A DNA stretch of 64,000 nucleotides from Dehalococcoidia bacterium (GTDB lineage Bacteria; Chloroflexota; Dehalococcoidia; Bin125). The notes under the pieces are model-generated. The model saw only the letters and a list, made by a program, of their open reading frames with translations. It was not told the DNA's origin and did no database searches. Within the stretch, counting starts at the first letter, position 1. Each line of letters starts with the position of its first letter. The stretch is taken from contig JAJDTU010000005.1 in NCBI GenBank assembly GCA_022826965.1, forward strand, positions 310,001 through 374,000. The letters are read 5' to 3'. The translations under genes and the position numbers were made by a program. This document shows, piece after piece, positions 58,373 to 62,414 of this stretch.

Positions 58373-59440
58373 TCAGAGCGGGACGGTGACGGGGCGGGTC
58401 ATGCCTCCGAAGGTGGGCATCCAGCAGGAGTGCTTGCCGGGGCCTCCGGCGACGATGATGTGGATCTCTTCGGGCTTGTCGGTGATCGGGAGCCATTCAT
58501 CGGCGTCGTGCTCGGCCAGGACGCCGCCGGCCATGCGGATGTTGACTGACTCGAGGAACTCCTCGCTCAGTTTGCTTGCCGGGTAGCGGGCGTTCTCCCA
58601 GAGATATTCCTGGATGGCCTCTCGGGTCCAGCCCTCGGAGGCGACGGTTTCGGCATGCTCGGGACCGAAGGCGAGGACGGGTTCGCCCTTACCGAGGATG
58701 TTGTTCGAGCCGGCCTGACCCATGGCGCCGGCGACGGTCTGGAGGATGCCGGCGGCGGTGTTGCTGCCGTGGTCCTGGATATTGTGCGGACCCTCGCAGG
58801 CCCAGGTCGTGACGCAACTGTCCTCGGCGTTGAGTTCGCGGGTGGTGTGGAAGGGCGGCCAGGGCGAGGCATCCTCGCGCTCGGTGGCGCAGAAGGCGAA
58901 CTTGGCCGGGGTGCCCTGGGTCGCCCGATCGCCGCGACCTGGCGTCGCACCGGCGACGTTGAGCTGGACCAGGCGAACAGCGCGGCCGATGGTCGCGTTG
59001 GATGGGAAGGTGGGTCCGAAGCAGCCGGAGCCGCCGTGGATGCCGGCGGTTCGCGCGGCGGGGCCGGAGGCGAGGATGAAGACGGCGCAAGGGTGCGTGG
59101 TGGCGTTGATGCCGTCGAGGTTGAAGGGTGGCTGGGCGATGGCCTCGACAGCGGCGAGGACGACCGGGAACTGCTGCGGTCGGCAGCCGGCCATGACGGC
59201 ATTGATCGCGATCGCCTCGACCGTGGCTTCGCCCTGGCGGGGAGCGAGGACGCCCAGGACTTCGAGGGGGTCTCGGCCTGAGGACTGAACCATCGCGTCT
59301 ACGCGGTCGGCGGTCGGCGGAATGAGGGGGAGTCCGTCGGACCAGCCTCGACGCTGGCATTCCTGGGAGAAGTCGAAGAGGTCGGAGGGCAACGTGAATC
59401 GGTCGGCCTCACGGCCTTGTGCTGTGGCACCGACCGTCAC
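58373..59440 (-). CDS. Partner protein of the UGSC selenoprotein, unknown function
   Basis: The 355-residue soluble protein begins near RRGWSDGLPLIPPTADRV, a motif I associate from memory with proteins encoded beside UGSC proteins. Conserved-looking glycine- and cysteine-containing segments follow: AINAVMAGCRPQQFPVVLAA, NATTHPCAVFILASGPAA, GIHGGSGCFGPTFPSNATIG, CVTTWACEGPHNIQDHGS and GKGEPVLAFGPEHAE. No cofactor motif is recognised. GTG 59440 overlaps the selenoprotein stop (GTGA), so the two are translationally coupled and likely form one enzyme or complex. The cysteines could work with the selenol. Confidence 0.8.
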   Translation of the reverse strand: MTVGATAQGREADRFTLPSDLFDFSQECQRRGWSDGLPLIPPTADRVDAMVQSSGRDPLEVLGVLAPRQGEATVEAIAINAVMAGCRPQQFPVVLAAVEAIAQPPFNLDGINATTHPCAVFILASGPAARTAGIHGGSGCFGPTFPSNATIGRAVRLVQLNVAGATPGRGDRATQGTPAKFAFCATEREDASPWPPFHTTRELNAEDSCVTTWACEGPHNIQDHGSNTAAGILQTVAGAMGQAGSNNILGKGEPVLAFGPEHAETVASEGWTREAIQEYLWENARYPASKLSEEFLESVNIRMAGGVLAEHDADEWLPITDKPEEIHIIVAGGPGKHSCWMPTFGGMTRPVTVPL

Positions 59441-59982
59441 GAGTTGTCTCCCTGTCCGAGCAGGGCGGCTTCCAGGCGGTCGAGGACGGCGTCGTCGATG
59501 CGGGCTCGGACGCGCTCGGGACGCAGGCCGCCGAGCGGATGCGGCACGATCAGGCGATCGAGATCAGGCAGGCCGCGCTGCTCGGCTTCGAGCTGGAGCA
59601 GGTCGGTGAAGGCGGAGGTGCCGACCGTGACGGTGGGGATTCCCATGTCTTCGAAGAGGACGGAGGCGTGGACACTCCACGTCGTGCAGCTGCCTCAATC
59701 GCAGCTTCCAATGAGAAGGAAGTCGGCGCCATTGCGCAGGGCGTCGATGGTGGAATCGGAGGGCGGGCCGCCGACCGGCTTGCTGCCGACGACGAGGTCG
59801 CCGAGGTCGTGGCGTTCGCCGAGGCGCTCGACCATGGTCTCCATGAGGAGCCGGGCGTTGGCCTTGCGGTTCTCGAGGATGCCGGGTCGGAGGCCGTCGA
59901 GGGAGAGCGGGCGGGGGGCGGCGGTTGCCTCACGGACGGCGACGTGGGCGAGAGGGCTGAGGACTTCGATGGTGTCGGACAT
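59437..59982 (-). CDS. UGSC family selenoprotein, in-frame TGA read as selenocysteine
   Basis: Reading from ATG 59982 gives 95 residues ending NGADFLLIGSCD, then TGA at 59695-59697, then GSCTTWSVHASVLFEDMG and an uninterrupted frame to 59437. Read as Sec, residues 96-99 are U-G-S-C, the motif that names this family, and the total is 181 residues. Downstream of the TGA a hairpin CGTGGA-GTG-TCCACG lies 13 bases away, with a GU-containing loop as in bacterial SECIS elements. The U/C pair separated by two residues suggests a thiol-selenol redox site. The function of the family is not known. An automatic call would give two ORFs, 59695-59982 and 59437-59646. SelA, SelB, SelD and tRNA-Sec are not in the window. 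Confidence 0.85.
59661..59697 (-). promoter_or_regulatory. Candidate bacterial SECIS hairpin just after the Sec codon
   Basis: On the minus strand the TGA (59695-59697) is followed by GGCAGCTGCACGA and then the hairpin CGTGGA-GTG-TCCACG. An outer GAGG/CCTC pairing can close it. The apical loop starts 19 bases after the TGA and its first base is G, in line with the known bacterial SECIS rules (G in the loop start, 16-37 bases). Confidence 0.7.
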
Positions 59983-60056
59983 GGGGAGGCTCCGATGGAG
60001 TGGACCTTGATGTTTCGCGGATCAGAGTAGCGAGTCTCTGGGCCGCTTCCTGCTGG

Positions 60057-61304
60057 CTACTCGTCGTTCGGATCAATCACGATGACCTCGGAGTAGCCGA
60101 CGAATCGTGGTTCCTGTGATCGGCCTCCTGGGCATTTGGTGGTGACTCTGACTAAGACCCGGCCTGCGACTGTCGGAGTGCCCGTGACTTGCACTCCCCG
60201 CTCACCGGTCTTCGCGTTTGAGTAGCCGACCAGTTCAAGTCCATTCCATTCTCCTCCGGGGTTCACGGAGAATTCCGCTCTGGGACCGAACCAGGAGAAG
60301 TAGGTCGTGCCATCCGAGTGACTGCTTTCGACCCGGCAGGACGGCGCGAACTCCGATGTGGCGACGTTCAGATCGTCGATACCGGAGTAAGACTGGCCCA
60401 GTTCGAGCTCGACTCGGAGCAGCAAGTCCGCCGCATCGATTCGCGAGTCGTCGGACGGGAGCGGAGGCGGTACCTTGGCGAACAGCTCACGCACGATAGT
60501 AGTTCTGCGGGAGACCGGTAGTACGTCGGGAGGATTCCCCACGCGCACCGAGTATCGATCGGCGAGTTGCAGCGCGCGCTCGGTGTCGAAGCTAGGGACA
60601 TAGCGGTCCCAAACCATGAGCACCATCGCTGTGAACTCTTCGTTATGGCCATTTTCGGTCCCTGCCAGCACATGAGCGAGTTCGTGCAGGATCGTGTTTG
60701 CGCTGGCATACGAGGTATAGATGGTGCGTCCGGAGGCGTACGCTTCCCAGCCAACGATATCCAGCACATGCAGTTCTACCGGTTCAATGTTTCCGCGATA
60801 CAAGTCATCGACTATTGCCGCAATCCATCGACGGACTTCCGCCCAATAGGCATCCCAATCCGGTAGCAGGAAGTACGCAGAGTGGTTAAACGACAACGGT
60901 ATGAGCTCCTGTGCGATTCGAGTTTCCCAATCATAAGCCCGATATTGCTGCCGGTCGCCGATGGTCCCTACGACCGGTTCGTGGATGAAATGGTGAGTTC
61001 CGTCGACGATCTCGCGATCAGCGCTGACCCACACGCCACTTCCACTGCTACGTAGCTGGATCCATCCGCGAGGAGTTGGATCGCCAGATGCTCCACTTCT
61101 ATCGATGTGGATGTGGTACCAACCCTCCGACGCATCGACGATGAACTGACGGCGAGTAACATAGATTGTGAAGTCCACTTCGCTCACGGTCCTGGGATCA
61201 ACGCTGATCCGCTCCCGGCCTATGCAGGGGTATCCGGGAGCGACCGTTGTCGTGACTCCTCCTGAAACCTCGATTCTTCTGTCGCAGGTGTCGCCGAAGA
61301 TCAC
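60057..61304 (-). CDS. Putative secreted-type HExxH metallopeptidase, damaged 5' end
   Basis: From GTG 61304 the 415-residue frame contains a zinc peptidase motif ILHELAHVLAGTENGHNEEF (HExxH with a further His/Glu) in the middle. The C-terminal region looks like an immunoglobulin/putative cell-surface domain (GVQVTGTPTVAGRVLVRVTT). N-terminal repeats (GWYHIHIDRSGASGD, GWIQLRSSGSG) suggest beta-sandwich binding modules. No signal peptide is present from this start. A TGA lies immediately upstream in the same frame, and protein-like sequence (FWPFEFTRDTNVLITAFDD) continues above it to about 61469. The gene is probably 5' truncated by the neighbouring IS and/or carries a stop. Confidence 0.65.
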   Translation of the reverse strand: MIFGDTCDRRIEVSGGVTTTVAPGYPCIGRERISVDPRTVSEVDFTIYVTRRQFIVDASEGWYHIHIDRSGASGDPTPRGWIQLRSSGSGVWVSADREIVDGTHHFIHEPVVGTIGDRQQYRAYDWETRIAQELIPLSFNHSAYFLLPDWDAYWAEVRRWIAAIVDDLYRGNIEPVELHVLDIVGWEAYASGRTIYTSYASANTILHELAHVLAGTENGHNEEFTAMVLMVWDRYVPSFDTERALQLADRYSVRVGNPPDVLPVSRRTTIVRELFAKVPPPLPSDDSRIDAADLLLRVELELGQSYSGIDDLNVATSEFAPSCRVESSHSDGTTYFSWFGPRAEFSVNPGGEWNGLELVGYSNAKTGERGVQVTGTPTVAGRVLVRVTTKCPGGRSQEPRFVGYSEVIVIDPNDE

Positions 61305-61469: not shown

Positions 61470-61490
61470 CTACTCATAAGGAGATCGGTG

Positions 61491-62414
61491 ATGAGCAAGT
61501 CCACGATCAGCACTTACCAACTCTTCCAGATGTACCCCGACGCGGAAGCCGCACGGCTGTACTTCGAGGGCAGGCGATGGCCGAACGGCCCCATCTGCCC
61601 GCACTGCGACAGCGGCGAGCAGATCACCAAACGCGGTGGCAAGCGCATCGGTTACTACCGTTGCCGCGACTGCGACAAGGAATTCACGGTTCGAACCGGG
61701 ACCATCTTCGAGCGCTCGCACGTGCCGCTCAACAAATGGCTGTACGCGATGTACATCGTCGTCACGGCCCGCAAAGGCGTCTCCTCGTTGCAGCTCGCCA
61801 AAGAGATTGGCGTGCAGCAGAAGACGGCCTGGTTCATGCTCCAGCGGCTGCGCGAGGCTTGCGGCGGCGATGACGATCAGCTCGACGGGATCGTCGAAGT
61901 CGATGAGGCTTACATCGGTGGCCTCGAAAAGAACAAGCACGCTCACAAGAAGCTGAAGGCCGGACGCGGAACTGCTGGCAAGACGGCGGTGCTCGGCATG
62001 CGCGAACGCGGCGGTCGCTCGATTGCGCATCCCGTCGCCGGAACCGATATGGCGACGCTGCGAGCTGAGATTGAGCAGCACGTCAAGCCAGGCGCGACGA
62101 TCTACACGGACGAGCACGGTGGCTACAACGACTTGCCGGACTACCTGCGCGGAACCGTCGCTCACTCGCTCGGCGAGTACGTCGGCCCCGGCGATGTGCA
62201 CATCAACTCGGCCGAGTCGATGTGGGCTGTGCTCAAGCGCAGCATTCACGGAACCTGGCACTCCGTCTCTGTCAAGCACCTTGAGCGCTACGTCCACGAG
62301 GCGATGTTCCGGCTCAACGAGGGCAACGTCAGGATTCACACGCTGGACCGGCTGGCCGCGTTCGCTGACCACGCGTTCACAACTCGGATCACATACAGGG
62401 AGTTGACGGCATGA
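61491..62414 (+). CDS. IS1595-family transposase (ISXO2-like DDE)
   Basis: The 307-residue protein starts at ATG 61491 behind AAGGAG. The N-terminal zinc ribbon is CPHCDSGEQITKRGGKR and YYRCRDCDKEF. Helix-turn-helix segments follow (GVSSLQLAKEIGVQQKTAWFM). The DDE-like catalytic residues are in DGIVEVDEAYIGG, IYTDEHGGYND and HINSAESMWAVLKRS (N/E type). This is the IS1595 (ISXO2/ISNwi) pattern. The sequence is intact and probably active. Confidence 0.92.
   Translation: MSKSTISTYQLFQMYPDAEAARLYFEGRRWPNGPICPHCDSGEQITKRGGKRIGYYRCRDCDKEFTVRTGTIFERSHVPLNKWLYAMYIVVTARKGVSSLQLAKEIGVQQKTAWFMLQRLREACGGDDDQLDGIVEVDEAYIGGLEKNKHAHKKLKAGRGTAGKTAVLGMRERGGRSIAHPVAGTDMATLRAEIEQHVKPGATIYTDEHGGYNDLPDYLRGTVAHSLGEYVGPGDVHINSAESMWAVLKRSIHGTWHSVSVKHLERYVHEAMFRLNEGNVRIHTLDRLAAFADHAFTTRITYRELTA

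Follow-up and report, generated by a model that had tools for sequence, protein, structure and literature searches.

A UGSC-family selenoprotein gene and its near-obligate partner gene in a Dehalococcoidia bacterium: a possible two-component selenoenzyme with a putative link to GrdB/PrdB

The window analysed here is a stretch of 64,000 nucleotides from a Dehalococcoidia bacterium (assembly GCA_022826965.1, contig JAJDTU010000005.1, positions 310,001 to 374,000), which carries two overlapping genes on its minus strand. The first (59437..59982) almost certainly encodes a Sec-decoding selenoprotein of 181 amino acids in which the UGA at codon 96 is read as selenocysteine, to judge from the sequence comparisons below. 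Read from 59982 down to 59437, its frame comprises 95 codons, a TGA (59695..59697, minus strand) and then GSC, yielding a translation of MSDTIEVLSP...GADFLLIGSCD-U-GSCTTWSVHASVLFEDMGIPTVTVGTSAF...GQGDNS with the motif U96-G97-S98-C99 at 59686..59697 (minus strand). It ends at a second TGA, codon 182, at 59437-59439 (minus strand), and a GGAG at 59990..59993 (minus strand), 7 nt 5' of the ATG, may serve as its ribosome-binding site. The first-pass annotation placed the open frame and motif exactly, and had anticipated that standard gene calling would split the gene; table-11 ORF finding indeed produces two pieces of 95 and 69 aa. The second gene (58373..59440, minus strand) encodes a partner protein of 355 aa, and its GTG start overlaps the UGSC stop in the sequence GTGA.

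Several other features surround this pair. A 415-aa gene 5' of it (60057-61304, minus strand) matches nothing in Pfam or NCBIfam, and its product is 27-46% identical among congeners, compared with ~90% for the UGSC protein and its partner. Convergent to the pair lies a nucleoside hydrolase-like gene (PF01156; 57405-58367, plus strand) that is syntenic across the genus, and a 308-aa ORF further away (61488-62414, plus strand) resembles, by eye only, an IS1595/ISXO2-type transposase. An Rfam search of the window returned ordinary tRNAs only.

With Cys substituted for Sec, the protein matches Pfam PF24696 (UGSC) across the whole domain (residues 6-167 of 181; E 3e-41, 141.9 bits against a cut-off of 25), bearing out its initial assignment to this family. 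Its match to the NCBIfam '(seleno)protein' model NF041046 (E 1.6e-30) scores 106.1 bits, below the curated cut-off of 125, and thus places it outside that equivalog, in a divergent UGSC subfamily. UGSC-containing selenoproteins have already been described (PMC2398784) and also appear in PMC9312934 and PMC13188914; they rank among the most abundant selenoproteins of aquatic metagenomes, with 255 sequences in the GOS data (PMC2398784). The window protein shares with these its U-G-S-C motif, length, whole-domain Pfam match, Sec decoding and aquatic bacterial distribution, but differs in its equivalog score and in having TTWSVHA after the motif where TSWSVHD is common. It therefore extends a known family by a somewhat divergent new member. 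The motif is invariant in an alignment of 32 sequences, and this conservation suggests that it forms the active site. A second UGSC-like subclass, with the pattern U-G-S/A-C-x-P-A-V-V/L/M-R and no Trp, was seen at L159:396-938, L168:76-354 and L176:7035-7577.

One competing reading of the in-frame TGA, and the one implied by the 95-aa and 69-aa ORFs, is that it is a true stop, leaving two short genes, a pseudogene or a sequencing error. Eleven other genomes of the genus, assembled separately, have orthologues that are 89-95% identical to the UGSC gene and without exception carry TGA at this codon, which disposes of the sequencing error that had been considered at the outset. Purifying selection acts on both sides of this codon. 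Relative to the window, the 168 aligned codons show 394 synonymous against 67 nonsynonymous changes 5' of the TGA and 220 against 58 on its 3' side, and third positions account for 240 of the 294 substitutions after the TGA in the 11 congeners. This synonymous excess and third-position bias indicate that the part 3' of the TGA is translated in the UGSC frame. In a survey of 301 Chloroflexota genomes, UGSC genes were found in 32, and nearly every match contained one TGA. Taken with the covarying SECIS element and complete Sec machinery described below, these observations make a true stop highly improbable.

A genome-wide reassignment of TGA, for example to Trp or Gly, would equally keep the UGSC frame open, as would any sense reading of the codon. 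However, the UGSC gene itself terminates at a TGA acting as a normal stop, relatives carry Cys at the site, and the source genome (G000; 3.0 Mb, 97% complete) encodes the dedicated Sec apparatus. This comprises a tRNA-Sec (70.2 bits, over cut-off; called by ARAGORN as tRNA-SeC with anticodon tca, i.e. UCA), selA (522.9 bits), selB (347.5 bits, for a frame that includes its neighbours) and selD (351.9 bits), so that all the sel genes the first-pass annotation had proposed to look for are present. We consider reassignment vanishingly improbable, and favour decoding of the UGA as selenocysteine. The selD gene (G000:C12:264989-265930) has one in-frame TGA of its own, and SelD is probably itself a selenoprotein. 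Four UGSC copies occur in the source genome, each with one TGA. Essentially all the Chloroflexota genomes with UGSC genes also have a selA match, although this co-occurrence is weak evidence because selA exceeds its cut-off in 243 of the 301 genomes anyway.

The identity of the site codon was also surveyed in a set of 80 loci retrieved with the partner protein, which come from Dehalococcoidia, Rokubacteria, Proteobacteria, Actinobacteria and others. The codon is TGA in 76 sequences, TGC in two, TGT in one and TAG in one, so that, as foreseen, homologues in this one survey have U or C at position 96. The TAG lies in a Blastococcus UGSC gene (L143:3196-3198) whose hairpin is intact; this is consistent with the known decoding of UAG as Sec in Geodermatophilaceae, whose UGSC selenoproteins are mentioned in PMC5330540.

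A putative bacterial SECIS element, the stem-loop CGUGGA-GUG-UCCACG, lies within the coding region at 59667..59681 (minus strand) and begins 13 nt 3' of the UGA. Counting the U of UGA as position 1, its layout is C17-A22 / G23 U24 G25 / U26-G31, with the loop G23U24 at 59675-59674. The hairpin had initially been described as stable, with a GU loop 13 bases past the TGA. Its position and loop hold, and comparative analysis supports it; its stability finds no such backing, as the single sequence folds with an energy no better than that of shuffles (z = +0.28, not significant). The case for the hairpin is accordingly carried by the comparative data. Pairs 18-30 and 21-27 each join third codon positions and can thus be tested against synonymous freedom. 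We compared 106 unique Sec sequences with a null of 2000 sets redrawn synonymously from the codon usage of the partner genes. All 106 have U24 (null mean 13.2, maximum 27), all keep pair 18-30 (null 39, maximum 55) and all keep pair 21-27 (null 65, maximum 78), while the GU and all six pairs are intact in 97 (null 1.5, maximum 8). Pair 21-27 is G-C in 81 sequences and C-G in 25, with zero exceptions. The G-C state combines a TGG Trp codon with Val, Ile, Leu or Phe codons ending in C, and the C-G state combines TGC, GGC, AGC or GCC with codons ending in G; the sequences share descent and the draws are therefore not independent, but the C-G state recurs with four different codons.

Within the genus, hairpin codons 101-105 show no change in 55 comparisons, against 278 of 737 elsewhere 3' of the TGA. 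Conversely, the Cys homologues L135, L151 and L155 have GC rather than GU in the loop and at least one broken stem pair each. On these comparative grounds we regard the SECIS hairpin of the UGSC gene as real; the analysis provides a codon-level demonstration of selection on a SECIS element, with the loop GU lost in all three Cys homologues seen. The E. coli fdhF SECIS, our control, is likewise a hairpin in the coding region directly 3' of the UGA with GU at 23-24; the UGSC family hairpin differs from it in having a three-base loop and no bulged U. In L176, a member of the second UGSC-like subclass, a hairpin with a GUGG loop of four bases can be drawn if it is shifted one base towards the UGA.

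The partner gene accompanies the UGSC gene in nearly all cases. Its GTGA overlap with the UGSC stop is kept in all nine congeners listed. The first-pass annotation took this coupled start as proof that ribosomes reach 59437; the conserved overlap suggests translational coupling, which falls short of such proof. In one relative, G010, UGSC and partner lie ~650 bp apart (L208:3038-3713) and the overlap is broken. A UGSC gene is present in 76 of the 80 partner loci and within 300 bp in 74; among those 76, UGSC comes first in 68 and the partner in eight. Two of the four loci with no UGSC gene have the partner at a contig end. In the source genome, six partner copies adjoin the four UGSC copies. 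Natural single-chain fusions occur in both orders, UGSC-partner and partner-UGSC (L193-L203; for instance L203:885-2474).

No Pfam or NCBIfam model matches the partner family, and nothing significant was found for it among PDB sequences. Its Cys86 (85 in alignments; codon 59183..59185, minus strand), in the motif NAVMAGC, is invariant in all 32 aligned partners. Further invariant residues are D, G, P, N, R and E, and together with Cys86 their conservation suggests a role in catalysis or ligand binding. In the available portions of the papers on the known UGSC family (PMC2398784, PMC9312934, PMC13188914), no partner is named apart from a UGSC/'Unknown_1' fusion noted in the 2008 GOS paper (PMC2398784), whose 'Unknown_1' domain may be the partner domain. 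The partner family was likewise not found in the passages of open-licence papers that we searched. We suggest that a separate family entry be made for it.

To place these proteins structurally, we modelled the UGSC protein with AlphaFold2. The model (pLDDT 92.1, pTM 0.85) is an alternating beta-alpha domain in which Sec96 lies at the start of a helix, after a strand. A Foldseek comparison with the PDB gave weak flavodoxin/Rossmann-type matches (TM up to ~0.5), and thioredoxin is absent from the best 50; the predicted fold is thus flavodoxin/Rossmann-like rather than of thioredoxin topology. A natural UGSC-partner fusion was modelled with still higher values (pLDDT 93.8, pTM 0.93), which points to a defined arrangement of the two predicted domains. 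In size, the PDB matches of the fusion model correspond roughly to the UGSC domain, and none covers the partner well, leaving the partner fold with no clear PDB relative.

A comparison of profiles provides a further clue to the relationships of the UGSC domain. GrdB/PrdB-type proteins of the relatives show a local pattern in which a hydrophobic strand and U-x-x-(C/x) are followed by a helix, by E-x-x-G-I-P and, further on, by (F/H/Y)PxG. Aligned with hhalign, the UGSC profile and that of GrdB/PrdB-type Sec domains match at 94.8% (P 5.4e-8) over 98 columns with Sec on Sec, from small alignments of 32 and 6 sequences. Controls gave 0.36% for a reversed profile and at most 1.3% for 40 column shuffles, and masking of the Sec-motif columns lowered the match to 77%. 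By this profile comparison, UGSC appears remotely homologous to the Sec domain of GrdB/PrdB. The shared features with GrdB, PrdB and FarB (PF07355; Sec subunits of glycine, D-proline and fluoroacetate reductases) are the superposed Sec, the helix, the E..GIP strand and [HF]PxG, a Sec within UxxC or UxxT, and function alongside a second subunit, which is probable in the case of UGSC. In contrast, UGSC is one small domain that lies outside PF07355 by direct search (0 of 32 members match, at E up to 10), and the profile comparison shows no relationship between its partner and GrdE (PF09338). We had considered the partner as a GrdE homologue and rejected this, as the profile comparison with PF09338 reached 0.24%; the partner also failed to match the GrdB domain, and searches of the UGSC, partner and GrdB profiles against PDB sequences returned nothing significant. 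The UGSC-GrdB link was not found in the passages of open-licence papers searched, a scope that does not allow priority to be claimed. Both the source genome (G000:C4:595606-595998 and G000:C2:373767-375507) and the genus encode short proteins whose match to GrdB (PF07355) is confined to its C-terminal part, with no accompanying GrdE gene; a search of the source genome for PF09338 found none. These are further candidate GrdB/PrdB-related selenoproteins.

These results bear on whether the UGSC protein is simply a thioredoxin-type protein. It resembles thioredoxin-fold selenoproteins (Trx-like, Prx-like) in carrying UxxC at a helix N-terminus after a strand. The predicted fold differs from theirs, however, and a near-obligate partner gene, natural fusions and the profile link to GrdB/PrdB also speak against this reading, which we judge distinctly unlikely. 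A two-component enzyme formed by UGSC and its partner is probable by comparison of gene order, fusions and models, although linkage, fusions and a confident fusion model are no proof of a complex.

SelB and tRNA-Sec(UCA) almost certainly insert selenocysteine at UGA codon 96, guided by the hairpin immediately 3' of it within the coding region. In the enzyme that we propose, UGSC and partner would act as the two subunits of a single redox enzyme. The Sec96 selenolate, at a helix N-terminus of the flavodoxin/Rossmann-like domain, would attack a small electrophilic substrate at the interface between the two proteins. The selenium adduct would be resolved by Cys99 of the UxxC motif, possibly with partner Cys86, and the resolved adduct reduced by a thiol donor. 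We hold this enzyme scheme, as distinct from the Sec decoding, to be evenly balanced between right and wrong. The attack by Sec96 is drawn by analogy with GrdB/PrdB and with FarB, the GrdB-like protein of a fluoroacetate operon for which Sec-mediated attack on the C-F bond has been proposed (PMC10838667). GrdB-like reductive chemistry for UGSC is, on this analogy, a tentative suggestion that falls a little short of even.

Alternatively, the partner may be the catalytic enzyme, acting through its invariant Cys86, with UGSC as its dedicated reductant only. UxxC motifs often act as reductants, which favours this arrangement. It leaves unexplained the relationship to GrdB/PrdB, in which Sec attacks the substrate, and we find it rather doubtful. 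Our preferred reading, with Sec96 as the attacking residue, may extend further: UGSC and the 355-aa partner could represent a new two-component selenoenzyme class, in which a free-standing protein related to the GrdB/PrdB Sec domain has exchanged GrdE/PrdA for an unrelated protein with no recognised fold, and which has diversified into many paralogous pairs and fusions that presumably reduce different small organic substrates. We put this forward tentatively, as slightly less than an even prospect. The near-obligate partner, the fusions in two orders and the remote link to glycine and proline reductases nonetheless offer a concrete two-protein enzyme in place of a 'hypothetical redox protein'.

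The neighbourhoods of UGSC-partner pairs provide a hint as to substrates. Catabolic neighbours include TctC-type binding proteins, acyl-CoA dehydrogenase, TPP enzymes and amidohydrolases, hinting at organic acids. TctC-type proteins make up 19 of the 135 neighbouring proteins scanned beyond the pair, and are a lead only because such proteins are expanded in Betaproteobacteria. Separately, some Chloroflexota relatives (G045, G046) show a large paralogous expansion of the family, with at least 31 UGSC matches per genome, many of them as UGSC-partner fusions.
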